From NCBI GenBank assembly GCA_019038645.1, contig JAHOYT010000080.1, positions 1 through 38,923 of the forward strand: a DNA stretch of 38,923 nucleotides, in the 5' to 3' direction. Under the pieces are notes generated by a model. The model saw only the letters and a program-made list of their open reading frames with translations. It did no database searches and was not told the DNA's origin. Both the position numbers and the translations under genes were made by a program. Positions 5,381 to 22,146 of the stretch are shown here, in pieces. Source of the DNA: Bacteroidales bacterium. Its GTDB lineage: Bacteria > Bacteroidota > Bacteroidia > Bacteroidales > UBA12077. Numbering within the stretch: the stretch's first letter is position 1; each line of letters opens with the position of its first letter.

Positions 5381-5448
5381 AAACGGGAATTATTCTAAAG
5401 AAAAAAGATGAAGTTAAATAAAAAAGCAATAATCTGTTAGCACTAATT

Positions 5449-5895
5449 ATGAATTGTGTTAACTGTTTTATGATATGCGAAGTTAGTATCTGTGTTTACT
5501 TTAATTTTCCTGATAAAGAAATGAAAAACTTATATTTTACAAGTCCGGAAAAATCTGTTGAGATAATTACAGAATTATTGAAAAATAAAGATTGGGAAGA
5601 GCTAACAAACTATTATTATTTAAAGAACTGTAATCAGAGTATAATAGATTCAATGCTGTCAGGAGACTATTTTATTAGAAAGGATAAACCCGAAATTGCT
5701 CATCCGGGAGGATTCTGGAAATTTAAAAACCCTTTTCCTCCAGGTTTTAAATATTCTTTTTATGAAGAATTAGAAGACAATATTATTCTTGTTAATTTGA
5801 CAATTGAAATTGATCAGGGTGATAATAATATTCAGGAGGGAAGAACATTTTTCCAATTAATAAAATTCGGGGAAGGATACCAGTTAATTCCCTGA
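5449..5895 (+). CDS. Small hypothetical protein
   Basis: I do not recognise this 148-residue frame. It is soluble in appearance, acidic, and has no convincing signal peptide or membrane segment. Residues 25 onward (MKNLYFTSPEKSVEIITELL) look like a helix-rich start followed by a beta-rich C-terminal half (FKYSFYEELEDNIILVNLTIEI), reminiscent of small NTF2-like folds, but this is only an impression. The start is uncertain: an ATG at 5449 gives a Cys-rich leader, while the ATG at 5521 gives a cleaner 124-residue protein. It lies 68 nt after the kinase stop and may be the last gene of that operon. Confidence 0.55.
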   Translation: MNCVNCFMICEVSICVYFNFPDKEMKNLYFTSPEKSVEIITELLKNKDWEELTNYYYLKNCNQSIIDSMLSGDYFIRKDKPEIAHPGGFWKFKNPFPPGFKYSFYEELEDNIILVNLTIEIDQGDNNIQEGRTFFQLIKFGEGYQLIP

Positions 5896-5923
5896 TCTCT
5901 TCATAGTGTTATATTTTGTTTTT

Positions 5924-5947
5924 GCATTTTTTATTAATAAAAAATGC
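5924..5947. terminator. Perfect AT-rich palindrome, possible terminator
   Basis: A perfect 24-bp palindrome: GCATTTTTTATT followed by its exact reverse complement. It begins 29 nt after the stop of the small hypothetical gene. No clean T-tract follows on the plus strand, so termination is plausible but not certain. Confidence 0.45.
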
Positions 5948-5979
5948 TATAAATCGTACTGTATTGTAAAAATGATGGC

Positions 5980-6070
5980 TTGTCACTTATTTGTCCCATT
6001 CTAACAGCGGGCTCTATCAGGGTGTGTTCTAGCGAGTTATACCACAATGGCCCATTTATACTATAAAACA
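5980..6070. repeat. Diverged direct repeat, copy A
   Basis: This stretch shares several boxes, in the same order, with 15981-16063: TTGTCACTT at the left end, a TTCnAG..TTATA box, and a right end where 20 of 25 bases match (AATGGCCCATTTATACTATA here, AATGTCCCATTTATATTCTA there). The two copies lie in the same orientation and bracket the dCache kinase and the whole glycan/polyphosphate operon. It could be a decayed mobile-element end or a shared regulatory region. Confidence 0.35.
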
Positions 6071-6141
6071 TGTAAATCAGGCCTAATTATAAAGCTCATA
6101 ATAATAACTTTCATCACCTTGCCTCGTAAACAATTTTGAAG

Positions 6142-6158
6142 CACAAATTCTATTTGTG
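6142..6158. promoter_or_regulatory. Inverted repeat before the dCache kinase
   Basis: CACAAAT (6142-6148) and ATTTGTG (6152-6158) form perfect 7-bp arms around TCT, 25 nt before the preferred ATG at 6183. It may be an operator. It also covers the GTG at 6156 that would extend the frame, which argues against that GTG being the start. Confidence 0.35.
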
Positions 6159-6182
6159 TGTTCTTTTAAACCAAAGTTACAG

Positions 6183-8273
6183 ATGTTCCATTTTAGAAAA
6201 AGAATAATTGTATCACTAATAATCCTGTATATTATAGTTGAAGGACTGGCTTTCCTTGTTATTGAGAGATCCCACGACAGGGAAATGAACCAGACATTAA
6301 ATAAATATACCGATGAACTTGAGGTAAAATATAAAGCGGCGCAAAGTGCGTATGTATTGTTGACCGAGAACATTATTCGTCCATATATTAATAAGCCAGA
6401 GGTAATGCAACTTTTTAGTAAGGCAAATCATGCAGATAGCTTACAAAAAATTGAAATTAGAGATAGCCTGTATTCAATATTATTACCTGTGTATAAGTAT
6501 CTTGAAGCGAGTAATGTTGAACATTTCCATTTTCATTTGCCCAATAACGAAAGTTTTTTAAGATTTCACCGGCCTGAAAAATACGGAGACGACCTGAGCG
6601 ATATCAGATATTCCGTAAAAATGGCAAATTTAACAAAACAGGATTATAAGGGCCTTGAAGAAGGCCGAACACTCATGGAGTTTAGCTATGTTTTTCCATT
6701 GTTTTATGAAAACGAGCATATAGGAAGTGGTGAAACATGTTTTTCTTTTGATGCTATAAAAACACAGCTTAAGGTTCACGGTAACGAAGTTTTCGATTTT
6801 ATGATAAAAAAAGACACTGTAAACACAATAGTTTTTGAAGATGAAAAAAGTAGTTATATGCAGAGCTTAATATCTGATGACTATTTTCATGAAGAAAAAC
6901 GTCTAAATTATAAAGATGATACACTAAATATTATAAATCAAATCAATAAGAGCTTAAAAGGTAAAATAGAAAAAAAACTGGCAAACAATAAAAATTTCAC
7001 AACATATCTCAAAATCAATAAAGATTACTATTTGATTTCATTTGTTTCTGTAAATAACATTGAGGGCAAGCATGCTGCATATGTTATTTCTTATCAGCGA
7101 GACAATAAAATTGCTCAACATAAAACACGACATTACCATACTCATAGTTCAAGTTTTATTGGATTTTTTGCTATAGGTTTATTCGTTTTATTAATTGTCA
7201 AAAAAAATGAAAAAATTAAAGAAAGCGAAGAAGGGAAAAAAACAAAAAAGGAAATATTAGACACTTTTAAAGATGGTATTTATATTAGCACACCTGATTA
7301 TAGAATTAGTTATGTAAACTCTGCTCTTCAAGAAAAGTTAGGTTGTGACCCTATTGGTGAATATTGTTATAAAGCACTGTTTAATTATGAAAAGAAATGT
7401 AGTTGGTGCGCCTATGAAAAACTTAAAAAAGAAAAAAATAAAAATTCTTATGAATTAAATACTGAAAATGGGAAAACCCTTGTGGTTAGCAATACCTTAA
7501 TCGAAAACAATAACAAAATAACCGTTTTTCATGATATTACTAATCGCAAAAAAATGGAACAAGCTTTAACAGAAAGCATTCAAACAAAAAATAAATTTTT
7601 CTCAATTATAGCACATGATTTAAAAAATCCTTTTAACACATTATTAGGTTTTTCAGATCTTTTATTAAAAAACTATAAAGTATATGATGAAGAAAAATGT
7701 GGGCATATTGTAAAAATAATTAATGACAGTACAAAAAACACATATAGTTTATTAGAAAATTTACTTACATGGTCACGTTCACAATCGGGCAAAATTAAAT
7801 TTTCACCGGAAGAAATAAAGATCAAAACAATAATCAATGAAGTTATATTATTATTGCAACAATCGGCAAAAAATAAAAATATTCGTTTATCAGACAATAG
7901 TGAAGCCAACCTGACTGTTTATTCCGACAAAAACATGCTAAATACTATTTTGCGGAATCTGGTATCAAATGCAATAAAATTCACTCACCAGAATGGAGCA
8001 ATAATTATTTCAGCTTGTGAAACAAAGAACCAGGATTTTATAGAAATAACGGTAGCAGATACTGGTGTAGGTATCTCAAAAGAGAAAACAGCTGACTTAT
8101 TCCGGATTGAAAAATCCGACGCAACCTATGACACAGATAATGAGCGCGGAACAGGTCTCGGGCTAATTCTTTGCAAGGAATTTGTAGAAAAAAATGGTGG
8201 CAGAATTTGGGTAGAGAGTGAACTGAACAAAGGTAGCAAGTTTGTTTTCACTACACCCACAATTATGCGATGA
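6183..8273 (+). CDS. dCache-PAS sensor histidine kinase
   Basis: Membrane kinase of 696 aa from the ATG at 6183; an in-frame GTG at 6156 would add nine residues before an otherwise typical start. TM1 is near residues 8-26. The periplasmic domain has the FHFHLPNNESFLRFHRPEKYGDDLS signature (shown here as FHFHLPNN..SFLRFHRPEKYGDDLS) of double-Cache type 3 sensors. TM2 is about 322-342. A cytoplasmic PAS domain follows, with four cysteines in a C-x6-C-x10-C-x2-C pattern near 387-410, a type also seen in PAS domains of Deltaproteobacteria. HisKA has IIAHDLKNPF with His near 478, and the ATPase has NLVSNAIKF, DTGVGIS and GTGLGL. It carries no receiver; the lone receiver gene at 8675 is a possible partner. 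Confidence 0.92.
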   Translation: MFHFRKRIIVSLIILYIIVEGLAFLVIERSHDREMNQTLNKYTDELEVKYKAAQSAYVLLTENIIRPYINKPEVMQLFSKANHADSLQKIEIRDSLYSILLPVYKYLEASNVEHFHFHLPNNESFLRFHRPEKYGDDLSDIRYSVKMANLTKQDYKGLEEGRTLMEFSYVFPLFYENEHIGSGETCFSFDAIKTQLKVHGNEVFDFMIKKDTVNTIVFEDEKSSYMQSLISDDYFHEEKRLNYKDDTLNIINQINKSLKGKIEKKLANNKNFTTYLKINKDYYLISFVSVNNIEGKHAAYVISYQRDNKIAQHKTRHYHTHSSSFIGFFAIGLFVLLIVKKNEKIKESEEGKKTKKEILDTFKDGIYISTPDYRISYVNSALQEKLGCDPIGEYCYKALFNYEKKCSWCAYEKLKKEKNKNSYELNTENGKTLVVSNTLIENNNKITVFHDITNRKKMEQALTESIQTKNKFFSIIAHDLKNPFNTLLGFSDLLLKNYKVYDEEKCGHIVKIINDSTKNTYSLLENLLTWSRSQSGKIKFSPEEIKIKTIINEVILLLQQSAKNKNIRLSDNSEANLTVYSDKNMLNTILRNLVSNAIKFTHQNGAIIISACETKNQDFIEITVADTGVGISKEKTADLFRIEKSDATYDTDNERGTGLGLILCKEFVEKNGGRIWVESELNKGSKFVFTTPTIMR

Positions 8274-8346
8274 TTTACAAAACCGTGTATTGTCTAGACG
8301 AATAATCGAAATAATTTGTTCCCCCTGATCCTTTAAGAACCCAAAC

Positions 8347-8425
8347 AAAAAAGACCACTAATTTTCGGAAGCCTTTTAAAAACTGTTGACTCATCGGAAT
8401 CTGATGCCCCGGATTTTAATTATGG
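8347..8425. repeat. Possible degenerate tRNA 3'-half/terminator copy (R0)
   Basis: The order of blocks resembles the repeats at 17252, 18612, 20819 and 21974: an A-run with GAC, CTAATTT, AAGCCTTTT, then CTGTTGACTCA, GCCCC and ATTATG. The hairpin can form on the minus strand with G-U pairs. Similarity is patchy and may be chance in AT-rich DNA. Confidence 0.3.
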
Positions 8426-8494
8426 TTAATAATTCCATTAATACTAATAATCTCAAATTAATATAATATAGGCAGTTTATAGATATATGTAGAA

Positions 8495-8519
8495 ATTAAT
8501 CATTTATGGAATGATTAAT
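8495..8519. promoter_or_regulatory. Perfect 10-bp inverted repeat upstream of operon
   Basis: ATTAATCATT (8495-8504) and AATGATTAAT (8510-8519) are perfect reverse complements separated by TATGG. The element is 155 bp upstream of the first gene of the operon and has operator-like geometry. No T-tract follows, so it is unlikely to be a terminator. Confidence 0.4.
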
Positions 8520-8609
8520 CATGTTCAAATTTCAGAAGGTCTATTTGCCAAATAAATTAAAATTCAAGAACAATATATGCATTTATAATGTATTTAAATT
8601 AAAGAAACT

Positions 8610-8640
8610 TTGACTTTGTTAAATCAAAGCCGTAACTTGA
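8610..8640 (+). promoter_or_regulatory. Weak Bacteroidetes-type promoter for the glycan operon
   Basis: TTG at 8610-8612, a 20-nt spacer, then TAACTTGA at 8633-8640, an imperfect match to TAnnTTTG. Transcription would begin near 8647, about 28 nt before the first ATG. The -7 match is weak. Confidence 0.3.
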
Positions 8641-8674
8641 AGTAAATCAGTTTGGAGCATTAAATTATAATTTT

Positions 8675-9052
8675 ATGGCAACTATTAATTGCTTAATAAT
8701 TTCTGAAGATATTGTATTTAACGAGATTATTCACCGTTTAATTTGTTATAACATTAAAGAGGTTAGTTTTATTAGTTTCCGGTCATTTGCAAAGCTTAAA
8801 AACTTTCCAAAAGAAAATAAAATAGATATTGTAATTCTTGATGATTCTATTTCTGACTGTGTCCATTACGAGGTAATAACACATCTAAGGCTTACAAAAG
8901 AAATTGTTGCACCCATTTATTTTTTTAGTCCGGTTGATTACATTGAAAAACAAGCGTATTCTAATGGAGTAAATTTCTTTTTTAAAAAACCATTTGAGCC
9001 CAAAACTGTTATAAATCATATCATGTCAACTATTCAGTCAATATCACAGTAA
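8675..9052 (+). CDS. Stand-alone receiver-domain protein
   Basis: A single CheY-like receiver of 125 aa with no output domain. The acidic pocket is ED (residues 10-11), the phosphoacceptor is the Asp in VILDDS near residue 56, and the conserved Lys is in FFKKPF near 105. The usual Thr/Ser position reads FFSPVD. It probably passes a kinase signal by protein contact, perhaps to the HEAT-like or GT2 protein encoded downstream. Its TAA overlaps the ATG of the next small gene by one base (TAATG), so it belongs to the glycan operon. The dCache kinase upstream is a candidate partner. Confidence 0.82.
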   Translation: MATINCLIISEDIVFNEIIHRLICYNIKEVSFISFRSFAKLKNFPKENKIDIVILDDSISDCVHYEVITHLRLTKEIVAPIYFFSPVDYIEKQAYSNGVNFFFKKPFEPKTVINHIMSTIQSISQ

Positions 9053-9186
9053 TGAAATTGAAAAACGTCATATTAAGTTGTTGTCTCTTTATGTCTGTTC
9101 AGGTAATGAGTCAGACCACTATTGATTCCTTATTTAATGCTGCCGATGAGTATTCAAAAGAATTATTTTTTAAACAAAGGTTCTGA
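9052..9186 (+). CDS. Small secreted peptide with YaiO-like N-terminus
   Basis: A 44-codon gene. It starts on the ATG overlapping the receiver stop (TAATG), and its TGA overlaps the ATG of the HEAT gene (TGATG), so it is tightly coupled on both sides. The product has a clear signal peptide (MKLKNVILSCCLFMSVQVMS, then Q) and a mature part of about 25 residues starting TTIDSLFNAADEY. The mature start resembles that of the operon's TPR/barrel protein (SQDVDSLFNIARE). It may be a functional short periplasmic peptide, or the remnant of a truncated YaiO paralogue. Preserved overlaps at both ends favour translation either way. Confidence 0.6.
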   Translation: MKLKNVILSCCLFMSVQVMSQTTIDSLFNAADEYSKELFFKQRF

Positions 9187-10415
9187 TGTTTTTTCTTACT
9201 AAAACATATCTTAAAAATCACGTAAAGTATTTGCTATTTTTAATGGCAATAAGCTTCCCGTTAATTATATTTCTTTTTTTAACAAATCCCGGAGTTATAA
9301 TTTTTGGATACTTTATTGAAAATCCTATATACCAGAAATTTCCGGTCTGGGCTGTTGTAATTTTCGTTTTTATCATATTTAGTCTGGCAAGTTTTATAAT
9401 GTTTTTCGTAATTAATCTTTTCTTAACATCACTAAGGAAAAGATCCGACAGGCAAAGTAAAAGATTGCAGGGACTGTTCTTAAGGCTAATTATTAGTTAT
9501 TTATATCCGGTAGAACAAAGTATTGATGAAGAATACAAAACCATTGCCAGAATAAAGAAATTTCTTTACAATGGGTTTAGCAAAAAGGAACTTCTAATTT
9601 CTATAACAAAAGTGGCAGAAAATATTAATACTGATTTTAGTTATCAGTTTAAAAATCTGGTGCTAAAATTAAAATTGGATGGTATCGTTAAAAGCATGTT
9701 GTATTCAGCAAACCTGAGCGATAAAGTATTAGCAATGCATATTATTTATTATCTGGATTTAGGCAATGTGGGATATTTAAAAAGAATAATGAAATATTCT
9801 GAAAGTAACAATTTTGCATTACGAACGGAATCTTATATAACATTAATTCGCCTGATGAAAGATGAAAGTCAATTGGTTGAGTTTATCGGGAAGAAATATA
9901 ATTTATCTATGTTGGATATAAATGTTATTGTGAATGCAATTTTAAATAATCCAATGCTTAAGATAGATTTTATTAAGCTACTGTCTTCTGATAAGACCAG
10001 AAAAATTCTTATTGGATTACTAATGGCGCAATATAAATACAGGGATAACTCAAGGAGTATTATTCTTATCCTGAATCAACTGGATAATGAAAACTTAATG
10101 GTTAAAAGGTTAGCATGGGACGCTTACTTAAGTCTGGTTCCCGAAAAAGAGGGTTTCGACTTAATCCGGGAACATTATCATGAATTAGATCATAATGTCA
10201 AGCTTATGATAATAAAGCATTTCGATTTTTACAACAATAAGCCGGAAATTGATTTTTTAGATGAAATTATTTTAAGTGAGCCAGCATCAATTAAAATAGA
10301 AGCAATGAAAAAAATGTTTAAGCTTAATATGAAAACTTTTATTAAGTATGTTGAAATAGAAGACCCGGTAATGGTGTCGGTTTGCAGTGAAGTAATAGAT
10401 ATTAATATAAATTAG
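9186..10415 (+). CDS. Membrane-anchored HEAT-like repeat protein
   Basis: A protein of 409 aa with two N-terminal membrane helices (about residues 15-40 and 53-82), followed by a strongly basic stretch (RKRSDRQSKR) that places the rest in the cytoplasm by the positive-inside rule. Residues 100-405 are helical repeats of HEAT type, for example AMHIIYYLDLGNVGYLKRIM, then FALRTESYITLIRLM, then RLAWDAYLSLV. No enzyme motif is visible. It is six nt upstream of the GT2 synthase; a scaffolding or regulatory role on the synthase, perhaps linked to the receiver protein, is inferred from position. Confidence 0.75.
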   Translation: MFFLTKTYLKNHVKYLLFLMAISFPLIIFLFLTNPGVIIFGYFIENPIYQKFPVWAVVIFVFIIFSLASFIMFFVINLFLTSLRKRSDRQSKRLQGLFLRLIISYLYPVEQSIDEEYKTIARIKKFLYNGFSKKELLISITKVAENINTDFSYQFKNLVLKLKLDGIVKSMLYSANLSDKVLAMHIIYYLDLGNVGYLKRIMKYSESNNFALRTESYITLIRLMKDESQLVEFIGKKYNLSMLDINVIVNAILNNPMLKIDFIKLLSSDKTRKILIGLLMAQYKYRDNSRSIILILNQLDNENLMVKRLAWDAYLSLVPEKEGFDLIREHYHELDHNVKLMIIKHFDFYNNKPEIDFLDEIILSEPASIKIEAMKKMFKLNMKTFIKYVEIEDPVMVSVCSEVIDININ

Positions 10416-10421
10416 AATAAA

Positions 10422-11849
10422 ATGGGAATAGAACATTTTTTACATTCTCTCATTAATGTATTTTTCCTGGTATATGGCCTTACTCTTTTTGTTTCATATA
10501 TTACTATAGGTATATTTTCAAGCCTTGAATTAACCTTTTATAATAATCGAAATAAGTACTTTAATTTCAATTCTATTACTGATTTTAAAGAGTTACCCAC
10601 GATTTCAGTAATTGCACCATGTTATAATGAAGAAAAAAGTATTGTAGAAAATGTTCGAAGCTTACTTTCGCTTAAGTATCCTGATTTGGATATAATTGTG
10701 GTGAATGATGGAAGCACTGATGATTCTTTAAAGATTTTGAAAGAAACATATCATTTGGTGAGAGTAAATTTTGCTTACGAGCAAAGCATTAACACTGAGA
10801 AGGTTAGGGGAATTTACAAATCTTCCGGTAAAGAATACTCTCAACTAATTGTAATTGATAAAGAAAATGGAGGTAAATCTGATGCATTGAATGCTGGAAT
10901 TAATTTATCACGTAACGAATTGTTTTTAGCAATTGATGTGGATTGTATTATAGAACAGGAAGCAATTTCAAGAATGGTTAAGCCATTCCTGGAAGAAGAG
11001 GATGACAGGAAAGTAATTGCTTCAGGTGGTGTTGTAAGAATCGCAAATAATTGTCAAATTGAAAATGGTCAAATTGCAAAAGTGAATTTTCCAAAGAATA
11101 TTTGGGCTGAATTTCAAACTCTGGAGTATATGCGCGTTTTCACACTGGGACGTATGGCCTGGAGCAGAATTAATGGACTTTTAATTATTTCAGGTGCTTT
11201 TGGACTGTTTGACAGGGATATTGTATTAAAAATTGGAGGTTATGATATAACAAGTGTAGGTGAAGATCTGGAATTGGTTTTAAGAATGAGGAAGTATATG
11301 CATAATGTAGAAAAAAAGAAATACAAAGTTGCATTTATTCCTGATCCATTATGCTGGACTGAGGTTCCTTCTAATTTAAAAATGCTTTCCCGGCAAAGAA
11401 ATAGATGGGCAAGGGGATTAATTGATACAATGATCAAACACCGGGATATGTTCTTTAATCCGAAATTTGGACGCATTGGGATGATTAGCTTTCCTTACTG
11501 GTTATTTTTTGAATGGATGGCGCCTTTTGTTGAAGTGATTGGAATTAGCTACTTAATTACAATGATTTCATTAGGCAAAATTGATCTAACTATTGTTATT
11601 TTATTTTCCATTTTTGCTTTTTCATTTGGACTACTTTATTCATCATTTTCGGTATTTTACGAAAAGTTAATATTTAGCAGATACAGAGATTATAAGTTCC
11701 TGTTTAAGATCTTTTTTATTTCAGTTACTGAAATATTTATTTTTCACCCTCTGAATACTATTTTCTCATTAAAAGGAAACTATGATTACTTTATTAAAAA
11801 GAAAAGAGGATGGGGAAAAATGAAAAGAGAAGGGTTTAATTCAAATTAA
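10422..11849 (+). CDS. Processive GT2 glycosyltransferase (PgaC/BcsA-like)
   Basis: Inner-membrane polysaccharide synthase of 475 aa. One N-terminal helix (about 12-32) precedes the GT-A domain. Motifs in order are the nucleotide-sugar binding start (TISVIAPCYNEE, near 59), VVNDGSTDDS, the metal-binding DVD near 172, the acceptor/catalytic GED near 280, and RQRNRW near 324, the (Q/R)xxRW motif of processive synthases. Several C-terminal helices would form the translocation channel. There is no PilZ domain, unlike BcsA. Size and layout are closest to poly-N-acetylglucosamine or hyaluronan-type synthases, but the sugar cannot be read from sequence. The downstream TPR/barrel gene supplies a plausible outer-membrane exit. 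Confidence 0.9.
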   Translation: MGIEHFLHSLINVFFLVYGLTLFVSYITIGIFSSLELTFYNNRNKYFNFNSITDFKELPTISVIAPCYNEEKSIVENVRSLLSLKYPDLDIIVVNDGSTDDSLKILKETYHLVRVNFAYEQSINTEKVRGIYKSSGKEYSQLIVIDKENGGKSDALNAGINLSRNELFLAIDVDCIIEQEAISRMVKPFLEEEDDRKVIASGGVVRIANNCQIENGQIAKVNFPKNIWAEFQTLEYMRVFTLGRMAWSRINGLLIISGAFGLFDRDIVLKIGGYDITSVGEDLELVLRMRKYMHNVEKKKYKVAFIPDPLCWTEVPSNLKMLSRQRNRWARGLIDTMIKHRDMFFNPKFGRIGMISFPYWLFFEWMAPFVEVIGISYLITMISLGKIDLTIVILFSIFAFSFGLLYSSFSVFYEKLIFSRYRDYKFLFKIFFISVTEIFIFHPLNTIFSLKGNYDYFIKKKRGWGKMKREGFNSN

Positions 11850-11855
11850 TATTTA

Positions 11856-13127
11856 ATGAAATATTTTAAAGGCCTTTTCACATTAATTATTCTACTAATT
11901 TCATTTCTTGCTAAAAGCCAGGATGTCGATTCGCTGTTTAATATAGCAAGGGAGTTGGCTTTTAATGGCAACCGCGAAGAAGCCCGAAAAGTATGCAATC
12001 AGATTTTAAACACAAAACCAACCTATCTGGATGCAGCAGTATTAAAAGGGAGGACATATGCCTGGGACAAAATGTATGATTCTTCAGTTGTAAGCTTTCA
12101 ATATGTTTTTTCTCATAAAATAGGACATCGGGACGGAATTTCTGCAATGACCGATGTATTGATATGGAGTAAGAATTACGAAGAAGCTTTAAAATACGCC
12201 AATATCGGAATTTCATTTCATCCCACTCATCAGGATTTCTACATTAAAAAAGCTACGATTCTTTTAAAGATTGACGAAATAGAAAAAGCTAAAAAGGCAT
12301 TGTCACAGGTTCTTGATTTAAATCCATCTAATGAAAAAGCATTGGCTATTTTGAAAAAAGAAAACCAAAAATTAATGCTGAGTAAAATAGAAGTAGTCCA
12401 TGATTTTGAATTTTTTCAAGAACCATATATTAGAAGACGTCATTTAACATATATTTCGTATGCTAATAAAACTCCAATTGGTAGTGTTATTGCCCGGCTT
12501 TATGTAAACGATATTGTAAAAGATAACGAGCACATATACCAGAATGAGTTAGGATATCAGGCAGAATTAACAGCATATCCTAAAATTGCCAATGGATTAT
12601 ATTCATATGTAAGTTATGGTTATGGATTTAACCGCTTATTTCCAAAACATAGAGCCGGACTTGAGTTATTTAAAAGTTTACCATGGAGTTTTGAAACATC
12701 GTTGGGTTTCCGGTATATGCAGTTTATAAGTTCCACTGACTCTTCGAAAAAAGACATTTTTGTACTTACAGGATCTTTAGGTAAGTATTATAAAAACTTC
12801 TGGTTTTCATTCAGGCCATATATTACTCCAAAAGATGTGGGTGTTTCTCAATCATACTTCTTAACAATCAGGTATTATTTGTCCAGTGCCGATCGATATA
12901 TTTTCTTACAATCAGGTATTGGTAGTACGCCCGATGAAAGTTCTGGTGATGTAGTTGATTACGAATTGTATAAACTCGATAAAAAGAAAATTAAAATTGG
13001 ATACGAAGGTCCAATAAAAGATAGGTGGACAATAAAAGCAAGACTTGGTTATGAATATACAGAATATGACACTCAAAAGTATAGGGATCAATGGAATATA
13101 ACCTTAGGTATTAATTACAAATTTTAA
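11856..13127 (+). CDS. TPR plus outer-membrane beta-barrel protein (YaiO family)
   Basis: A protein of 423 aa with a signal peptide (cleavage after LAKS, before QDVDSLF). TPR-like repeats cover about residues 22-165, including ALKYANIGISFHPTHQDFY and KALSQVLDLNPSNEKAL. The C-terminal part is amphipathic beta-strands ending in Phe (LGINYKF), the usual end of outer-membrane barrels. This matches the YaiO family. The arrangement of periplasmic TPR plus barrel is analogous to PgaA or the PelB/AlgK-AlgE export pairs. Being six nt after the GT2 synthase, it is the likely export porin for the glycan. Confidence 0.85.
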   Translation: MKYFKGLFTLIILLISFLAKSQDVDSLFNIARELAFNGNREEARKVCNQILNTKPTYLDAAVLKGRTYAWDKMYDSSVVSFQYVFSHKIGHRDGISAMTDVLIWSKNYEEALKYANIGISFHPTHQDFYIKKATILLKIDEIEKAKKALSQVLDLNPSNEKALAILKKENQKLMLSKIEVVHDFEFFQEPYIRRRHLTYISYANKTPIGSVIARLYVNDIVKDNEHIYQNELGYQAELTAYPKIANGLYSYVSYGYGFNRLFPKHRAGLELFKSLPWSFETSLGFRYMQFISSTDSSKKDIFVLTGSLGKYYKNFWFSFRPYITPKDVGVSQSYFLTIRYYLSSADRYIFLQSGIGSTPDESSGDVVDYELYKLDKKKIKIGYEGPIKDRWTIKARLGYEYTEYDTQKYRDQWNITLGINYKF

Positions 13128-13137
13128 GGCAAGCCTC

Positions 13138-14442
13138 ATGAGAAAATATATAGTTTCCGGTCTTCTCGTATTATTATGCATGCAACTTACTGCACAGAAT
13201 GATACAAATAAAAAAAAGCAAATTGGAGATGAATTTTTTAATGCCGATTTTGTACATGACATCCACATTAGGTTTGCCCAGTGTAATTATTGGGATTCAT
13301 TAATTCATTACAAAGAATATTACAAAGACCAAAATGAAATAAATAAATATTTACAAGCCAATGCAACTGTAACTGGAAAGAAATTTTATGCGGTTGGTGT
13401 GAGGATTAAAGGAGAATCATCATACGATTATACACCCGGTGATAAAAAATCGTTCAAAATAAAATTTAACAAATTCATTAAAAAGCAAGATTTGGATAAT
13501 TTATCAACCATTAATCTTAATAATGGATTTAAAGACCCCAGCTTTTTACGAGAAAAAATATTTTTTGATATTCTCAAAAGTGAAGGAATCCCGGCCCCAC
13601 ATATAAGCTTTGCAAACCTTAATATAAATGATAAAAACTATGGTTTATATGTAGTTTCTGAGCATATTAATAGTCGATTTTTAGAGAAATATTTCGGCAA
13701 TAAAAATGGAAATTTTTATAAGGGTGAGCCAAAAGCAACTTTTGAATATCTTGGCAATAAAACCGACGATTATCAAGGAAAATTTCATGCTGAACATAAA
13801 AAGAATAAAATAAGAAAAGACCTGGTTGATTTAATCAAAATTATTAACGATGACAGTTTAAATGAAACAGAATTTAAGGAAGAAATTGAGCAAGTCCTAA
13901 ATGTTGGTAATTGTCTTAAAATCTTTGCAATAACAAATATCTTTTGTAATGTCGATGCTTATAATATGATTTATCCACACAACTTTTATTTGTATAAAAA
14001 CACCGATACCGATCTGTTTGAATGGATTCCATACGATGCTAATTATGCATTTTGTGCCTGGAGTCCTGTTTTTGAATTACGTGAAGCAGAAAAGATGAGT
14101 ATTTTTTATCAGCACCCTGATAATAATAACCCTTTATTTCAAAAAATCATTTCAAATAGCTATTACAGAGATGACTATATTAGCTATATGCAATCATTGC
14201 TCGACAAATACTTCACCAATGAATATATCGAAGACCAGATTGACAACCTAAGTTTAAAAATAAGGAAATACGTCTATCTCGATGACATGAAAATGTATTC
14301 AAATGATGAATTCGAAAAAAACTTATATGAAACAATAGGCGATCCTGACGATCCGGGCGCATTTATTCCGGGATTAAAATCTTTTTGGATTAAAAGAAGA
14401 AAAGCAGTGAAGGCAGAAATTAAAAAGCTTAACCGCGATTAA
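13138..14442 (+). CDS. Exported CotH-type kinase
   Basis: A CotH-family atypical protein kinase, 434 aa, with a signal peptide ending LTAQ. Family landmarks are GVRIKGESS, the Lys-bearing strand KKSFKIKFNKF, NLNNGFKDPSFLREKI, YGLYVVSEHIN, the catalytic-loop-like CNVDAYNM..HNFYLY, and the metal-binding FEWIPYDANYAF. In Bacillus, CotH phosphorylates a spore-coat protein. Here the signal peptide places it outside the cytoplasm, where ATP is scarce, so donor and substrate are open questions. It is ten nt after the YaiO gene and precedes a VTC polymerase and a DUF4956 protein, a combination that recurs in bacterial genomes. Confidence 0.88.
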   Translation: MRKYIVSGLLVLLCMQLTAQNDTNKKKQIGDEFFNADFVHDIHIRFAQCNYWDSLIHYKEYYKDQNEINKYLQANATVTGKKFYAVGVRIKGESSYDYTPGDKKSFKIKFNKFIKKQDLDNLSTINLNNGFKDPSFLREKIFFDILKSEGIPAPHISFANLNINDKNYGLYVVSEHINSRFLEKYFGNKNGNFYKGEPKATFEYLGNKTDDYQGKFHAEHKKNKIRKDLVDLIKIINDDSLNETEFKEEIEQVLNVGNCLKIFAITNIFCNVDAYNMIYPHNFYLYKNTDTDLFEWIPYDANYAFCAWSPVFELREAEKMSIFYQHPDNNNPLFQKIISNSYYRDDYISYMQSLLDKYFTNEYIEDQIDNLSLKIRKYVYLDDMKMYSNDEFEKNLYETIGDPDDPGAFIPGLKSFWIKRRKAVKAEIKKLNRD

Positions 14443-14479
14443 TTGTAGCATCTGAACATTATTGATTTAAACCAAGGGA

Positions 14480-15238
14480 ATGTATAATACGGATAAACTA
14501 TATGAAATTATTAATAAGTTTGATTCCATTGGGCTTAAAGAGGCAGATCAAGTGAAGTTAATGAATCGAACTGATACTAAATACTGGTTTCATACAGATA
14601 TTTTACCCGAAGTGTTAGAGTTGATATATAAAAAGTATTTCGTTCTTAAAATTGATGGTATTAGCATTTTGCCATACACAACTACGTATTATGATAGTTC
14701 GGAGAACAGTATGTACATTGCACATCACAATGGGAAACGTAATCGATTTAAAATCAGAACAAGAAGTTATCTGTCAACCAACCTAAGTTTTTTGGAAATA
14801 AAATTTAAAAACAATAAAAACCGAACAATAAAGAAAAGAATAAAAATTACAGATGAGAGTACTGATTTTTCTGATCAGGGGAAAAAGTTCATTTCAGAAA
14901 ACACATCATTTAAAAGTGATGATTTGAAACCTGTTTTAATGAATAAATTTGATCGTATAACGATGGTAAATAAAGATTTTACTGAACGATGCACTATTGA
15001 TTTAAATATTCAATATAAAAATGATAGTAAGAAATCAAATCTTCGAAATTTTGCGATTGTTGAAATAAAAGCAGATGGAAAAAATCGTAATTCATCTCTT
15101 GGACATGCTTTAAAAGTGTTTAAGATCAAACCTTCACGATTTAGTAAATATTGTATTGGAATGCTTCAACTTTATGAAGGGCTTAAACACAATAGGTTTA
15201 AAAATAAAATGCAGAATATTAACAAAATAACACTATAA
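14480..15238 (+). CDS. VTC-domain polyphosphate polymerase-like protein
   Basis: A cytoplasmic protein of 252 aa of the VTC/TTM tunnel fold. Basic and acidic residues lining such tunnels are visible on successive strands: MNRTDTKYWF, TTYYDS, the RFKIRTRSY strand, LEIKFKNNKNRTIKKRI, CTIDLNIQY, VEIKADGK, and RFSKYCIGM at the end. In yeast Vtc4 this fold makes polyphosphate from ATP. There is no SPX domain and no membrane part. The gene ends two nt before the DUF4956 membrane protein, so the pair could act as polymerase plus membrane channel. Polymerase activity is inferred from family membership. Confidence 0.85.
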   Translation: MYNTDKLYEIINKFDSIGLKEADQVKLMNRTDTKYWFHTDILPEVLELIYKKYFVLKIDGISILPYTTTYYDSSENSMYIAHHNGKRNRFKIRTRSYLSTNLSFLEIKFKNNKNRTIKKRIKITDESTDFSDQGKKFISENTSFKSDDLKPVLMNKFDRITMVNKDFTERCTIDLNIQYKNDSKKSNLRNFAIVEIKADGKNRNSSLGHALKVFKIKPSRFSKYCIGMLQLYEGLKHNRFKNKMQNINKITL

Positions 15239-15240
15239 TT

Positions 15241-15837
15241 ATGGAGTTTTTAGGTATACCTTTTTTTGATGACGATTTCTTTAAGATGATTTTTCGTTTG
15301 GCAATAAATATGGTTTTTCTAACCATTATTATTCGTTTTCTATATTACAGAAGCACAAAAAAGCCAGAATATATATTCACTTATTACATGATTGGACTGG
15401 TTGTATTCTTCATTTGTTTTACCTTAAAAAAGTTTGAACTTGAGTTAGGTATGGCTTTAGGCTTATTTGCAATTTTTGGGATAATTCGATACCGGACCGA
15501 AGCTGTTGATACTAAAGAGATGACTTATTTGTTTATTGTAATTGGAGTTTCGGTAATTAATGCTCTGGCAAATAAAAAAATGAGTTATGCAGAAATTTTT
15601 GCCGCTAATTTGATAGTTATAATCGCTATTTATATTATTGAAAGAGTACTTTTCAAAAATAAAGAAAGATCTTTAGAAATGACATATGAGAAAATAGAAA
15701 ATGTACACTTTGAAAATAAAGAATTAATTATTGCTGATTTAAAATTGCGTTTAGGTATTAATGTTACACATTTTGATATCCATAGTGTCGATTATCTTAG
15801 AGACACTGCCAGGCTTACTGTATTTTATAAATTATAA
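15241..15837 (+). CDS. DUF4956 four-helix membrane protein
   Basis: A protein of 198 aa with about four membrane helices in residues 15-140, then a soluble C-terminal domain of about 55 residues. The conserved block GLFAIFGIIRYRTEAVDTKE between helices is the DUF4956 signature. The function of this family is not established. It follows the VTC gene by two nt, which suggests translational coupling and a shared complex. By analogy with the yeast VTC complex, where a membrane part passes polyphosphate across the bilayer, it may translocate the VTC product; this is inference. It is the last gene of the operon. Confidence 0.87.
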   Translation: MEFLGIPFFDDDFFKMIFRLAINMVFLTIIIRFLYYRSTKKPEYIFTYYMIGLVVFFICFTLKKFELELGMALGLFAIFGIIRYRTEAVDTKEMTYLFIVIGVSVINALANKKMSYAEIFAANLIVIIAIYIIERVLFKNKERSLEMTYEKIENVHFENKELIIADLKLRLGINVTHFDIHSVDYLRDTARLTVFYKL

Positions 15838-15970
15838 ATAGTCAAACACAAAATATATGTAATACGGTAGAATATTTTCCCGGGATGTGAAATTTATTAA
15901 GAAATAATTTAGCCAGGCTGGTAATTCTCCGTAAGGTTCCATAACAAAATCCAATAAACAAAGACTAAAT

Positions 15971-15987
15971 GTGACAAATGTTGTCAC
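15971..15987. promoter_or_regulatory. Perfect palindromic operator-like site
   Basis: GTGACAA, ATG, TTGTCAC: perfect 7-bp arms with a 3-nt spacer, like binding sites for dimeric regulators. It lies about 220 bp upstream of the zincin gene and 130 bp after the operon. TGGCAC at 16000-16005 resembles a sigma-54 -24 box but has no -12 partner. Confidence 0.35.
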
Positions 15988-16063
15988 TTCAAATTCGCCT
16001 GGCACATTGTAGAATAGATATTCAAGTCTTTATAAATGAATGTCCCATTTATATTCTAAACAA
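15981..16063. repeat. Diverged direct repeat, copy B
   Basis: Counterpart of 5980-6070, sharing TTGTCACTT at its left end and AATGTCCCATTTATATTCTA at its right end (20 of 25 bases match copy A over the right box). The copies are in the same orientation about 10 kb apart. Confidence 0.35.
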
Positions 16064-16204
16064 ACTGTCGAAATACATGAAGATATTGCCGTGCAATTTT
16101 AAAAAAAAGCCTAACTTTCAGGTTGAAATATTGCATAAAGTTTTTTGGTGGAATTAAGAAAGTGATTATATAGGTTATTTTTTAAACACTTAAAATATTA
16201 CAAA

Positions 16205-17059
16205 ATGAGAATAACAAATTCAAAAAAGAACATGTTGATATTAAGAACATCAGTGGTTACATTTGCGATTTGCCTTTTACTTAATAATCCTTGGGGAATG
16301 GCACAAACAAAAGAAACGTCTATTGATAAAAATCTGGTAATTACGTTGCCTCCAGCTAAATTGAAGCTTGATCCTTTTTATAAAAAATATATATGCGCAA
16401 ACGGGATACACATTATCAGTTCCGCAAAAGTTCCTGATGCAGCTATAATAGCCGCTTTCAAAACCATAAAATTTATGACCGATGCTCTTCCTGCTGAAAT
16501 ACATGAATCTATGATTAGCAGAGATACAAGGGTTGCCGTAATGGCACGATATGAAGGAACAACTGATATTCCCGAACACGCATTTCTGGCAAACGATACA
16601 ACATTAAACTGGGATGTAAGAGCTCGTGGTTTGGGAGGTACAGTAGAATTGCCTTTAACGAGTTGTGCCGAGGAAAACTTATTGTGCTACCAAATTGATA
16701 AATACCATGCTGAAGATATTTTGATTCATGAATTCGCACACACCATTCACGGAGTGGGAATAATGCCAATTGATACGACTTTTAATAATTTACTTCAGGA
16801 AAAAATGGATGCTGCCATTAATATTGGAAAGTACGAAAATACTTATGCGATAACTAATATTTGGGAGTATTTTGCAGAGGGTGTACAAAGCTGGTTTAAT
16901 GTGAATGCCGAAGTGCCAGAACCTGACGGCAAACATAATAGAATAAATACACGGGAGGAATTAAAAAAATATGATCCCGATCTTTACGAAATATTGAGTT
17001 GGTATTTTCCAATAACAAATGAATGCCCCTCATGCCATGAGGCAGAAAATAAATATTAG
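16205..17059 (+). CDS. Secreted zincin metallopeptidase-like protein
   Basis: A protein of 284 aa with an N-terminal export signal (hydrophobic stretch about residues 11-32, ending GMAQ; translation may also begin at Met10). The core has HEFAH at 175-179, the HExxH zinc motif, and downstream WEYFAEG near 220-226, whose Glu fits the third zinc ligand of gluzincin-like enzymes. The upstream block with RYEGTTDIPEHAFL and RARGLGGTVELPL looks like the N-terminal half of the same fold. I cannot name a peptidase family with certainty, and the substrate is unknown. Cys residues (SCAEENLLC, ECPSC) may form disulfides outside the cell. It stands alone between the glycan operon and the tRNA-repeat zone. 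Confidence 0.75.
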   Translation: MRITNSKKNMLILRTSVVTFAICLLLNNPWGMAQTKETSIDKNLVITLPPAKLKLDPFYKKYICANGIHIISSAKVPDAAIIAAFKTIKFMTDALPAEIHESMISRDTRVAVMARYEGTTDIPEHAFLANDTTLNWDVRARGLGGTVELPLTSCAEENLLCYQIDKYHAEDILIHEFAHTIHGVGIMPIDTTFNNLLQEKMDAAINIGKYENTYAITNIWEYFAEGVQSWFNVNAEVPEPDGKHNRINTREELKKYDPDLYEILSWYFPITNECPSCHEAENKY

Positions 17060-17251
17060 TACTATAAATGATTGTATCAGCGTCTGATTTTATTAAAGAA
17101 TCAGAGAATAACCACAATAAATGTTCATGAAATAATATATACATAGTTTAAAAAACCACCATTGAATTATGTATTAGTCTTAATTTTTTTGGATAGCGAC
17201 ATTTTTCATATTCGGCTACACATCGGGAATCGGGACGAATCAGGGACATAT
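17060..17251. other. Intergenic segment before the tRNA-derived repeats
   Basis: There is no gene here. Near 17222-17248 the motif CGGGACGAATCAGGGAC resembles, on the minus strand, a tRNA T-arm and may be more tRNA debris. The similarity is short and uncertain. Confidence 0.4.
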
Positions 17252-17342
17252 AAAAAAAGACTCCTAATTTCTTAGAAGTCTTTTGAAGCCTGTGGACTCA
17301 CCTATCTCGATAGCTATCGGTACCCCTGATTATGAGTCAGGT
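17252..17342 (-). repeat. tRNA(CAT) 3'-half plus terminator copy (R1)
   Basis: Matches the intact tRNA locus at 21974-22087 from the terminator hairpin through the acceptor 3' side (GCCTGTGG) and then again across the anticodon arm (CCCTGATTATGAGTCAGGT), after which it diverges. The T-arm between is replaced by a segment containing the 12-bp palindrome CGATAGCTATCG (17308-17319). It is not a functional tRNA because the 5' half is missing. I read it as the leftmost att-like scar of the array. Confidence 0.75.
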
Positions 17343-17376
17343 TTTAAATATATAGAGATTGTGTTATGAGTAAAAA

Positions 17377-17428
17377 ATGAACATAAACGCATCTTGTGTT
17401 CATTATTTGTTGTGAAAATGAACATGTT
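17377..17428. promoter_or_regulatory. Three ATGAACA-type boxes upstream of fic
   Basis: ATGAACA at 17377-17383, its inverse TGTTCAT at 17397-17403, and ATGAACATGTT at 17418-17428. The first two form an inverted repeat and the third contains the palindrome AACATGTT. They lie just upstream of the fic promoter, as expected for an operator, possibly autoregulatory through the Fic winged helix. That link is inferred. Confidence 0.45.
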
Positions 17429-17453
17429 ATTAGTTTTTTTAAATAAATGGACA

Positions 17454-17461
17454 TATATTTG
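17454..17461 (+). promoter_or_regulatory. -7 promoter element of fic
   Basis: TATATTTG is an exact match to the Bacteroidetes -7 consensus TAnnTTTG, 27 nt before the fic ATG. No TTG lies at the -33 position (only a T-run), which would suit an activated or weak promoter. Confidence 0.5.
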
Positions 17462-17487
17462 TATTACGTTCACAAAAGCTTAAATAT

Positions 17488-18609
17488 ATGGACATGAAAA
17501 AAATGTTTGAAAGAACAAAACCTTATAACCAACTTCCGATGTTACCACCACGTGAAGATATTGTTGATAAGGATGTTCTACTTGAGTGGGGTTTAGCAAG
17601 TAGGAACTTAGCGGAATTAAATAAAAATTTATATCGATTGCCTAATCCTGCAATGCTTATTAATACACTAACATTACAAGAGGCCAGGAGTTCGTCAGAA
17701 ATTGAGAATATATTTACAACTGACGATGAATTGTATAAAGCGGTATCAGATTCTTTAAAAGAAGAAAACGCGTCTCCAAATACTAAAGAGGTTCTAAGAT
17801 ATAGAGAGGCATTATGGGCTGGATATAATAACATACAAAATAATAGAGGAATAACATTAGATACAATTCTTAATGTATATCAGAAAATTAAAAATACAAC
17901 GCAGGAAATACGCTCTCTACAATCTCGGGTAGTAATTCGCAGAGGAAATAGTGAATTGCGTGCCGGAGAAATTATTTATACACCTCCAAGAGGTGAAAGT
18001 ATTCTTAAAGAGCTTATAAATAATTTTGTAATGTATCTGGCAGATAACAAGGATAATAATATTGATCCTTTAATTAAAATGGCCATAGCTCATTATCAAT
18101 TTGAGGCTATTCACCCTTTTTCTGATGGAAATGGACGAACAGGTCGAATAATAAATCTGTTGTATTTAGTTAAGGAAAATTTGTTAACTCAGCCTGTATT
18201 ATATCTGAGTAAGTATATTATTGAAAATAAAGATGACTATTATTTTAAATTAGGAGCTGTTACTCAACGTGGAGATTGGAAACCCTGGTTACTTTATATG
18301 ATGAAAGCAGTTCAATATACGGCATTCTATACCAATCATTTGATTGATGATATTGTTCTGCAAATGGATGCAACACTTGAATATGGAAAGCAAAATTTAA
18401 AATGGTATAACAAGGATGTGAATGAAGTACTCTTTATGCAACCATATGTAAAACCAAAGTTGCTTGGAGATGTTTTAGAGCGCTCAAGTCGTACTACTCT
18501 TACTAAATACATGCAGGAAATGACAGATTTAGGCATATTAAGCCCTAAAAAAGAAGGCAAAGAAGTCTTTTATCTCAATAATGATTTGATTAGAATTTTA
18601 GAAGGATAA
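17488..18609 (+). CDS. fic: Class II Fic domain protein (SoFic-like adenylyltransferase)
   Basis: A cytoplasmic protein of 373 aa. The Fic_N region contains the self-inhibitory motif S69-S-E-I-E73-N74, fitting the class II pattern [S/T]xxxE[G/N]. The catalytic loop HPFSDGNGRTGR begins at His209 and is intact, so AMP transfer from ATP to a protein hydroxyl is expected once inhibition is relieved. The C-terminal 60-70 residues (KPKLLGDVLERSSRTTLTKY) look like a winged helix. Length and layout closely match Shewanella SoFic. It is the only gene of its islet, between repeats R1 and R2, and ends two nt before the R2 hairpin, which may serve as its terminator. No antitoxin is adjacent, consistent with built-in inhibition. 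Confidence 0.92.
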   Translation: MDMKKMFERTKPYNQLPMLPPREDIVDKDVLLEWGLASRNLAELNKNLYRLPNPAMLINTLTLQEARSSSEIENIFTTDDELYKAVSDSLKEENASPNTKEVLRYREALWAGYNNIQNNRGITLDTILNVYQKIKNTTQEIRSLQSRVVIRRGNSELRAGEIIYTPPRGESILKELINNFVMYLADNKDNNIDPLIKMAIAHYQFEAIHPFSDGNGRTGRIINLLYLVKENLLTQPVLYLSKYIIENKDDYYFKLGAVTQRGDWKPWLLYMMKAVQYTAFYTNHLIDDIVLQMDATLEYGKQNLKWYNKDVNEVLFMQPYVKPKLLGDVLERSSRTTLTKYMQEMTDLGILSPKKEGKEVFYLNNDLIRILEG

Positions 18610-18611
18610 TT

Positions 18612-18662
18612 AAAAAAAGACTCCTAATTTCTTAGAAGTCTTTTGTGCCCGTGGATTCAGCT
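18612..18662 (-). repeat. tRNA-terminator copy (R2), mostly terminator
   Basis: The terminator hairpin block is nearly identical to that of the intact tRNA locus (GACTCCTAATTTCTTAGAAGTC) allowing for flanks, and about 20 nt of degenerate tRNA 3' end follows (GTGCCCGTGGATTCAGCTG). The rest of the tRNA 3' half is lost. It separates the Fic islet from the DUF1566 islet. Confidence 0.7.
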
Positions 18663-18868
18663 GTGATAACTTTTTGTTCCTCATTTGTCATTTTTAAAAA
18701 GTCCTGAGAAATAACATATAGTTAATCAGGGCTTTATTGTTCGATGTTTTATTTATGAATTAAATAGGCACTATAATTGAGACTGAAGCAATGTGTTATA
18801 TAACATAAGGATAAGGGGGTCACCTTTTTGTAGTTTTAAGAATAAATAGGTGAACAACCTAAACTTTA

Positions 18869-20755: not shown

Positions 20756-20818
20756 TTATTAACAATACTATAGAGGTAGTCGATACAGTAATTTGAGATA
20801 ATCCTTTACGAAACCCAT

Positions 20819-20902
20819 AAAAAAAGACTCCTAGTTTCCTAGAAGCCTTTTTTTGCCTGTGGGTCTACCTGGGCTCGAACCAGGGACCCCCTGATTATGA
20901 GT
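20819..20902 (-). repeat. tRNA(CAT) 3'-half plus terminator copy (R3)
   Basis: A 43-nt tRNA segment (20860-20902) matches the intact tRNA from the anticodon loop to the 3' end, with changes in the acceptor 3' strand (minus-strand TAGACCC for TGGGCCC). It is followed by the terminator hairpin (20819-20855). Homology stops exactly in the anticodon loop (ATTATGAGT, then GTCC instead of CAGG), a classic crossover region for tyrosine integrases. Hairpin changes are compensatory: CTAA/TTAG became CTAG/CTAG. Confidence 0.85.
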
Positions 20903-21959: not shown

Positions 21960-21974
21960 CAAATGAACCCAATA

Positions 21975-22006
21975 AAAAAGACTCCTAATTTCTTAGAAGT
22001 CTTTTT
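21975..22006 (-). terminator. Terminator of the tRNA(CAT) gene
   Basis: The hairpin has a 9-bp stem (AAAAAGACT/AGTCTTTTT), one C-A mismatch, four further pairs (CTAA/TTAG) and a TTTC loop, with T-runs following on the minus strand directly after the tRNA 3' end. It is the parent form of the hairpins in the other repeat copies. Confidence 0.85.
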
Positions 22007-22013
22007 GTGCCTG

Positions 22014-22087
22014 TGGGCCCACCTGGGCTCGAACCAGGGACCCCCTGATTATGAGTCAGGTGCTCTAACCAGCTGAGCTATGGGCCC
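22014..22087 (-). tRNA. tRNA with CAT anticodon (elongator Met or Ile2)
   Basis: A 74-nt cloverleaf on the minus strand. The acceptor GGGCCCA pairs with TGGGCCC, the discriminator is A, and no CCA is encoded. The D-arm is GCTC/GAGC; the anticodon arm is CCTGA-CTCATAA-TCAGG with anticodon CAT; the T-arm is CCTGG-TTCGAGC-CCAGG. The strong first pair and absent initiator features rule out formyl-Met initiator. A tilS-modified Ile2 cannot be told from elongator Met by eye. Its 3' half and terminator are repeated three to four times to the left, so it is the likely integration target. Confidence 0.95.
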
Positions 22088-22115
22088 GATTTATCATCAG
22101 ATAAATTTCGGAGTG

Positions 22116-22146
22116 CAATATTAACGAAATGTTATTAATTACGCAA
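22116..22146 (-). promoter_or_regulatory. Bacteroidetes-type promoter of the tRNA
   Basis: On the minus strand TTG (22146-22144), a 20-nt spacer, then TAATATTG (22123-22116), one base off TAnnTTTG. Transcription would begin near 22110, about 22 nt before the mature tRNA. Confidence 0.55.

Follow-up and report, generated by a model that had tools for sequence, protein, structure and literature searches.

The window analysed here is a 38,923-nt stretch of DNA from a Bacteroidales bacterium (assembly GCA_019038645.1, contig JAHOYT010000080.1, forward strand). Eight open reading frames (ORFs), all on the + strand between positions 8675 and 15837, appear to form a mosaic operon in which an exopolysaccharide (EPS) module is joined, through a CotH kinase, to a VTC-type polyphosphate polymerase and a DUF4956 membrane protein. 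The reading favoured here, to which a probability of about 0.4 can be given, is that the secreted CotH adds phosphate to the glycan or to a glycan-bound surface protein, the VTC-DUF4956 pair supplying phosphate in the form of polyphosphate. No function has been agreed for the CotH/VTC/DUF4956 set, which is found repeatedly in bacteria; its occurrence beside Pel loci of Gram-positive bacteria has already been published (PMC7112168). The CotH clade of EPS operons, the mosaic, the reading given to a 44-aa ORF of the operon and the hypothesis of a phosphate donor for CotH/VTC/DUF4956 are new.

Conservation of the operon and its exopolysaccharide module

The coordinates of the eight ORFs, and the successive gaps of -1, -1, 6, 6, 10, 37 and 2 nt between them, agreed with those of the first-pass annotation, which had been made from the letters of this DNA. 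The nearest relative found, locus L116 of the metagenome-assembled genome (MAG) 'Bacteroidales bacterium isolate CSMAG_1991', has a family 2 glycosyltransferase (GT2) 90% identical to that of the window. It repeats seven of the eight genes in the same order, with gaps of 6, 6, 10, 36 and 2 nt from the gene for a HEAT-like protein (HEAT) onwards. Blastn aligned window positions 9160-15840 to L116 at 87.8% identity and positions 8590-9062 at 83.1%, and found no homology directly upstream of the operon, beyond position 8590. The ratio of non-synonymous to synonymous substitution rates (dN/dS) between the two loci was 0.107 for the receiver gene (REC), 0.073 for HEAT, 0.047 for GT2, 0.142 for YaiO, 0.102 for CotH, 0.171 for VTC and 0.119 for DUF4956. 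Since L116 keeps the order and a near-identical spacing, with dN/dS values of 0.05-0.17, the seven ORFs can be regarded, on comparative grounds, as real genes under purifying selection, in an arrangement that exceeds chance.

REC, HEAT, GT2 and YaiO are recognisable from their sequences as an EPS module of a known type. HEAT adjoins GT2 in 106 distinct loci (duplicates were removed by GT2 sequence). When clusters were defined by a common strand and gaps of less than 600 nt, REC was present in at least 90 of the 106 and YaiO in at least 76, both counts being lower bounds because of contig ends. The commonest order was REC-YAIO-HEAT-GT2 (40/106 clusters). A HEAT search with the single sequence (E≤1e-3) found matches in 22 of 393 genomes of the order, and one with an alignment (E≤1e-6) in 57 of them, the 16 weakest (E above 1e-20) being mostly partial solenoid matches; from a scan of named genomes with a GT2 alignment, the best 80 of 554 confirmed loci were used. 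All four genes lie in one same-strand cluster in the window and in L116. The Bacteroidota loci of this module share with the window these four genes, the catalytic residues of GT2 and 42-90% GT2 identity, but in the window YaiO comes after GT2 and CotH-VTC-DUF4956 is added. No published name for such loci was found in the literature searched.

The stand-alone receiver, encoded by the first gene of the module (8675-9052), matched PF00072 only at a level below the cut-off (E 1e-4; 22.8 bits against 30.2). GT2, TPR plus YaiO, CotH, VTC and DUF4956 all exceeded their Pfam cut-offs, so that the domain calls of the first-pass annotation held, that of the receiver at a sub-cut-off score. Among 99 aligned module receivers, D56 was an aspartate in 96, K105 a lysine in 98 and S85 a serine or threonine in 94; in the window receiver the acidic pair is shifted and partly lost, with S10-E11 in place of E-D. 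The HEAT-like protein (9186-10415) had no match in the Pfam or NCBIfam scans. Hydropathy revealed two hydrophobic stretches (residues 15-33 and 58-76), and an AlphaFold model built from an alignment of 40 sequences (mean predicted local distance difference test score, pLDDT, 89.1) showed two long N-terminal helices and an alpha-solenoid. Its best PDB matches in Foldseek were armadillo/HEAT proteins (E ~1e-4); the template modelling (TM) score of only ~0.25 thus identifies the fold class and no specific relative. Together with its position next to GT2 in the module loci, this points to a membrane-anchored HEAT/ARM solenoid that is probably a regulator of the synthase. The processive GT2 synthase (10422-11849; PF13641, 8.2e-24) has D96, D100, D172, D174, E281, D282, Q325, R326, R328 and W329, all invariant in an alignment of 17 rows. 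The last of the four genes (11856-13127) codes for a TPR protein with a YaiO outer-membrane barrel, a probable export porin, which lay above the curated cut-offs of both PF19413 (1.5e-47; 162.3 bits versus 23.9) and TIGR04390 (128.4 versus 32). In E. coli, yaiO is presumably paired with a glycosyltransferase gene.

The first-pass annotation had seen in the synthase and the barrel the plan of Pga-type export, a membership that did not stand. The processive GT2 family and the idea of a TPR-plus-barrel protein are shared with the Pga/Ica poly-N-acetylglucosamine systems, but the window barrel belongs to the YaiO family and is not of the PgaA type. The score for TIGR03937 (PgaC) was 151.7 bits against a cut-off of 422.3, and that for TIGR03939 (PgaA) 15.6 against 366.65. 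Among the eight operon ORFs and seven neighbouring ORFs scanned (4016-20755), no PgaB deacetylase was matched, and PgaD was absent from the Pfam/NCBIfam matches.

A CotH clade that accompanies the module

The gene downstream of YaiO (13138-14442) codes for a secreted CotH kinase (PF08757, 7.1e-63; 213.5 bits, cut-off 23.8) of the clade described below. The protein aligned to the solved CotH 5jd9 (spore coat protein H; E 6e-18), its only close solved relative, and D273, H281-N282 and D300, which we take to belong to the catalytic region, were retained in 10 of the 10 clade members. By its domain and its residues in register with 5jd9, the window protein is identified as a CotH kinase, for which phosphotransfer is predicted. 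By eye, its N-terminus has a signal peptide, as have those of L116 and L335-L338; those of L339, L341 and L162 are lipobox-like and that of L340 is ambiguous.

When the window CotH was searched in 335 genomes of the class, 134 had a match at 1e-10, and 20 of the best places were examined. The seven best non-self matches (38-47% identity; genomes G1050, G970, G1013, G919, G1014, G844 and G841, loci L335-L341) all adjoin HEAT, with GT2 shown in six, YaiO in seven and REC in six of them. L335 is cut inside HEAT by a contig end, L339 shows no REC, and REC-YaiO of L340 are on the opposite strand. The next 13 relatives (36-39%) lacked the module, four of them lying near VTC-DUF4956. In the first locus sets, CotH was found inside the cluster in three of the 106 modules, those of the window, L116 and L162 (a Chitinophagales MAG); a long CotH of another clade lies 692 nt downstream in L056, and L127 (the same locus as L281) has a CotH on the opposite strand.

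The CotHs of the window, L116, L162 and L335-L341 formed one 10-row clade (bootstrap 96 and Shimodaira-Hasegawa-like approximate likelihood ratio test, SH-aLRT, 93 in a careful tree; SH-aLRT 96 in a quick tree). The GT2s of the nine CotH loci that show one, however, were not a single clade (approximately unbiased, AU, test, p 0.00037; 4 changes on the tree). This suggests that this type of CotH became associated with, or has been retained alongside, more than one lineage of synthases, and the trees and gene neighbourhoods identify CotH as the link between the glycan module and the VTC-DUF4956 pair. The idea that CotH belonged to VTC and landed here by chance was dropped, CotH lying beside the module in seven more loci. 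In L162 and L335-L341 the CotH clade and the module are the same as in the window, and seven of these eight loci have CotH adjacent to YaiO, but CotH stands between YaiO and HEAT, and VTC is outside the operon stretch seen. The first-pass annotation had joined a processive GT2 synthase and a TPR/barrel protein to CotH, VTC and DUF4956, and had proposed recurrence elsewhere as a check. The domain matches bear out the joining, and the glycan genes do co-occur with CotH in L162 and L335-L341, that is, in eight further loci, and with all three families in L116; the full set, on the other hand, was seen only in the window and its near relative L116 among the 106 distinct modules.

The substrate of CotH could be of two kinds. 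CotH might phosphorylate a secreted or surface protein, as the spore-coat CotH does, and this protein, not the sugar, would then be the matrix partner of the GT2 polymer; the kinship with spore coat protein H is in keeping with this, as are the 13 relatives without a GT2 module. However, no obvious substrate protein is encoded in the operon, and the clade accompanies the synthase operon across unrelated GT2 lineages. A protein substrate of this sort is thus possible but somewhat unlikely, and the reading retained is that CotH acts on the glycan or on a protein bound to it.

Other modules have a candidate partner of a different family. A PF00884 LtaS/OpgB-like protein was present in 30 of the 106 module clusters (e.g. 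L126, L139, L165, L184 and L286). In 13 it is fused to GT2, the fusion being C-terminal on GT2 and ~1140 aa long in Sphingobacterium, Chryseobacterium and Kaistella, and in six loci the protein comes after YaiO, the position taken by CotH-VTC-DUF4956 in the window. PF00884 was seen in none of the 10 CotH operons versus 30 of 103 (p 0.04, uncorrected for kinship). CotH and PF00884 may thus be two alternative routes for placing phosphate onto an exported polymer, and the PF00884-GT2 loci possibly a phospho-decorated EPS system in their own right. The only solved relative found for the PF00884 partner was 3lxq, an uncharacterised protein. With this CotH clade on one synthase module and the LtaS/OpgB-like partner elsewhere, a phosphate-decorated exopolysaccharide is predicted for a widespread Bacteroidota system.

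Some of the module loci, and one GT2 outside them, had further features. In three close REC-YaiO-HEAT-GT2 loci (L056:10998-11438, L057:11092-11496 and L058:11674-12702) GT2 is followed by a protein that looks hemerythrin-like by eye and is possibly an oxygen sensor; that of L056 had no hemerythrin match in Pfam. A GT2 of this group outside the 106 modules (L144, contig JAAYKE010000180.1) lies on a short contig assigned by binning to an Armatimonadetes MAG, the result of either mis-binning or transfer.

The VTC-DUF4956 pair as a possible phosphate supply

The VTC-type polyphosphate polymerase (14480-15238; PF09359, 8e-29, 101.3 bits, cut-off 23) has K34, R93, R95, K108, K118, R159, R170, E195, K197 and S222-K223, all invariant among 24 rows, and its family profile matched yeast Vtc4 (E 1.4e-15) with the conserved basic residues in register. 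By its basic residues and SK motif the protein corresponds to a VTC tunnel domain, and polyphosphate synthesis is predicted. The likeness to the yeast VTC complex lies in this catalytic domain; the window protein differs in being 252 aa long with no further domain, the candidate membrane part being a separate protein, DUF4956 (15241-15837; PF16316, 9.2e-50). Hydropathy found no hydrophobic helix in VTC and four in DUF4956, whose structure model, built from two sequences only, had a pLDDT of 43.8. The signals of CotH, the absence of a helix from VTC and the four helices of DUF4956 suggest a topology with the polymerase inside, the kinase outside and the membrane protein between them.

DUF4956 was a close neighbour of VTC in 83 of 85 distinct loci, which marks VTC-DUF4956, in its genomic arrangement, as a separate unit of its own. 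By profile, CotH lay within 5 kb of VTC in 23 of the 85 loci, 33 of which were shorter than 5 kb, and in 18 of the 52 longer ones. Apart from the window (listed as L217), the GT2 module was found at a single VTC locus, L116. VTC was present in 57 of 395 genomes of the phylum and in 188 of 393 of the order; 55 of the 57 VTC-holding phylum genomes had CotH somewhere, a count not made in the same way for VTC-less genomes. All 10 genomes with the EPS-type CotH (window, L116, L162 and L335-L341) hold VTC, and in the seven of L335-L341 DUF4956 adjoins every VTC locus returned. Two sets served for comparison: 20 module genomes whose cluster lacks this CotH, drawn from 22 of the 80 loci in named genomes (for the most part the closest ones), and 40 other genomes of the order having a HEAT match at E≤1e-20, 35 of whose loci were retrieved. 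By genome, 10/10 gave Fisher p values of 0.003 against the 20, 0.006 against the 40 and 0.014 against the 35. The samples are not phylogenetically independent and the association, marginal at the level of families, is suggestive. In L343, L346, L350 and L351 a recurrent unit was seen that consists of a CotH of ~510 aa, two small genes (~135 and ~195 aa; one in L351), VTC and DUF4956, the small proteins having weak CarboxypepD_reg-like matches only.

Several observations weigh against the proposed role in phosphate supply. Of the 52 VTC loci exceeding 5 kb, 34 had no CotH by profile at that distance or less, from which it follows that the pair has other roles; VTC, DUF4956, CotH and the module are complete in only two of the 106 modules, and in the other eight genomes with a CotH operon VTC was located outside the visible part of that operon. 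VTC is also common in module genomes outside the CotH set (9/20 and 22/40; 21/35 of the retrieved loci). Counted by family, with L116 placed in the window's family, the association becomes 6/6 (p 0.02, 0.04 and 0.07 against the 20, 40 and 35), and without the window's family 5/5 (p 0.04, 0.07 and 0.10). The genome of the window holds a second VTC-DUF4956 copy, 38-39% identical, and three genomes of the same genus have VTC without HEAT. The PF00884 partners score far below curated phosphotransferase cut-offs and may be hydrolases, so that a transferase function is attributed to them by inference. Finally, characterised CotH is an ATP kinase. Next after the second VTC-DUF4956 pair (G000 contig C40, L004:5320-7884, - strand) comes a protein of 353 aa in which CotH-like motifs can be made out by eye, though it has no Pfam match.

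In the mechanism proposed, the receiver and the membrane HEAT solenoid would control the processive GT2 synthase, and the TPR-YaiO barrel would pass the sugar chain through the outer membrane. To this base module a secreted CotH, of the clade that accompanies it, would have been added, and in this lineage VTC-DUF4956 as well. Polyphosphate would be synthesised by the pair at the cytoplasmic face of the inner membrane and carried across it, and in the periplasm CotH would phosphorylate the growing glycan chain or a surface protein attached to that chain. A secreted kinase requires a phosphate donor where ATP is scarce, as it is outside the cell; the supply is therefore tentatively assigned to VTC-DUF4956, whose cytosolic polymerase and accompanying membrane protein make it a candidate. 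The use of polyphosphate as the donor of CotH is speculative.

VTC-DUF4956 might instead be a phosphate-storage pair that is merely on the same transcript and does not serve the glycan system. The near-constant association of VTC with DUF4956, compared with CotH within 5 kb in 23 loci and a module only at L116 besides the window, would fit this, as would the second copy in the genome and the presence of VTC in roughly half of the module genomes that lack this CotH. It is harder to reconcile with an operon kept intact in L116, with gaps of 2-37 nt and dN/dS of 0.17 (VTC) and 0.12 (DUF4956), with VTC in all the genomes that have the EPS-type CotH, and with the published occurrence of these three families next to Pel loci of other phyla (PMC7112168). 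Storage alone is thus considered unlikely, and a service of the pair to CotH is preferred. In its strictest form, VTC would make polyphosphate, DUF4956 would pass it and CotH would use it, not ATP, on the exported polysaccharide; so exact a division of labour is a long shot, which if true would explain the recurrence of CotH/VTC/DUF4956 across phyla beside two unrelated synthases (GT2/HEAT/YaiO and Pel). The co-assembly envisaged in the first-pass annotation, in which the cell would export polyphosphate as such, to form part of the matrix alongside the glycan, has in its favour that polymerase, membrane partner and outer-membrane barrel share one operon, but leaves unexplained why CotH, not VTC, recurs beside the GT2 module, and is very improbable.

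According to PMC7112168, CotH, a polyphosphate polymerase, DUF4956 and DUF4832 are contiguous with pelDEADAFG in streptococci and clostridia, with a variant in bifidobacteria, and CotH is proposed there as a possible regulator of Pel synthesis via protein phosphorylation. The window resembles these loci, as there described, in the contiguity of CotH, polyphosphate polymerase and DUF4956 (13138-15837) by an EPS operon. It differs in that their synthase is pelDEADAFG, with DUF4832 or diguanylate cyclase/phosphodiesterase genes alongside; the neighbours in the window are REC, HEAT, GT2 and YaiO, and no Pel core family appeared in the Pfam/NCBIfam scans. Literature searches, with most subscription papers outside reach, yielded no further account linking CotH with VTC/polyphosphate polymerase or exopolysaccharide, and none of YaiO with a glycosyltransferase in Bacteroidetes.

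History of the operon and its surroundings

The 44-aa ORF (9052-9186), which the first-pass annotation had presented as a secreted peptide of the operon, was not conserved even in L116: ~97 bp of it (9063-9159) have no counterpart there, HEAT following REC after 21 nt. The ORF occupies the YaiO slot of the commonest module order. Its mature 23 residues had their best match, among 105 YaiO rows, in the N-terminus of the L118 YaiO (score 43), a score reached by none of 300 shuffled controls (mean 31, maximum 42). Because of this position, the YaiO-like N-terminus and the lack of conservation in L116, the ORF is probably an N-terminal stub left by a lost native TPR-YaiO gene and not a working part; a signal or pheromone role was ruled out by the N-terminus and the non-conservation.

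The GT2 tree places the window and L116 with L117 and L125 (98), within a clade of 14 rows (100). Among the remaining 12 members of this clade, YaiO lies upstream of HEAT in 11, and L121 shows no YaiO. The window YaiO falls outside the 11-row YaiO clade of these sister loci, although an AU test fails to reject its placement inside it (p 0.084). The trees are suggestive of a simple history: loss of the native YaiO, of which only the stub remained, and assumption of its role by the YaiO that lies after GT2. A joint gain of YaiO and CotH from REC-YaiO-CotH operons found no support, the window YaiO grouping apart from the YaiOs of those operons.

Synonymous divergence (dS) between the window and L116 was 0.92-1.22 for REC, HEAT and GT2 and 0.24-0.40 for YaiO, CotH, VTC and DUF4956, compared with 0.63-0.79 for three flanking genes and 1.05 and 2.47 for the other VTC-DUF4956 copy. 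Despite these two levels, a single breakpoint at the GT2/YaiO border was rejected, as sliding windows showed the low dS to be patchy along YaiO and CotH. The second half of the operon was likely exchanged recently between lineages, to judge from these values, though not as one clean cassette. Short repeats near a tRNA-Met gene (22013-22087) of the window, at 20792-20902 and 21971-22029, match L116:15414-15495, just downstream of DUF4956, and window positions 22000-24600 align with L116 18786-21411 (Blastn). This shared flank places the two operons near the same anchor, with different sequence in between.

A sensor histidine kinase gene (6156-8273, +; dCache_3, HisKA and HATPase_c, with PAS below its cut-off) lies 402 nt upstream of REC. 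A kinase within 600 nt upstream on the same strand was found in 19 of the 88 loci with enough flank, and not in L116; the kinase is possibly an unconserved input to REC. The phosphorelay switch through the lone receiver that the first-pass annotation had inferred is a conjecture. No c-di-GMP (cyclic di-GMP) domain was among the Pfam matches of the eight operon ORFs. Promoter and terminator scans of the operon region gave matches no more frequent than in shuffled sequence, and a promoter pattern of the Bacteroidota type was matched twice, both times outside the operon. Downstream of the operon, positions 16205-17059 encode a protein that, by eye, begins like a signal sequence and contains an HExxH motif (sub-threshold PF07737, E 0.0096), and positions 17488-18609 a Fic/DOC-family protein with Fic_N and SoFic-like C-terminal domains.

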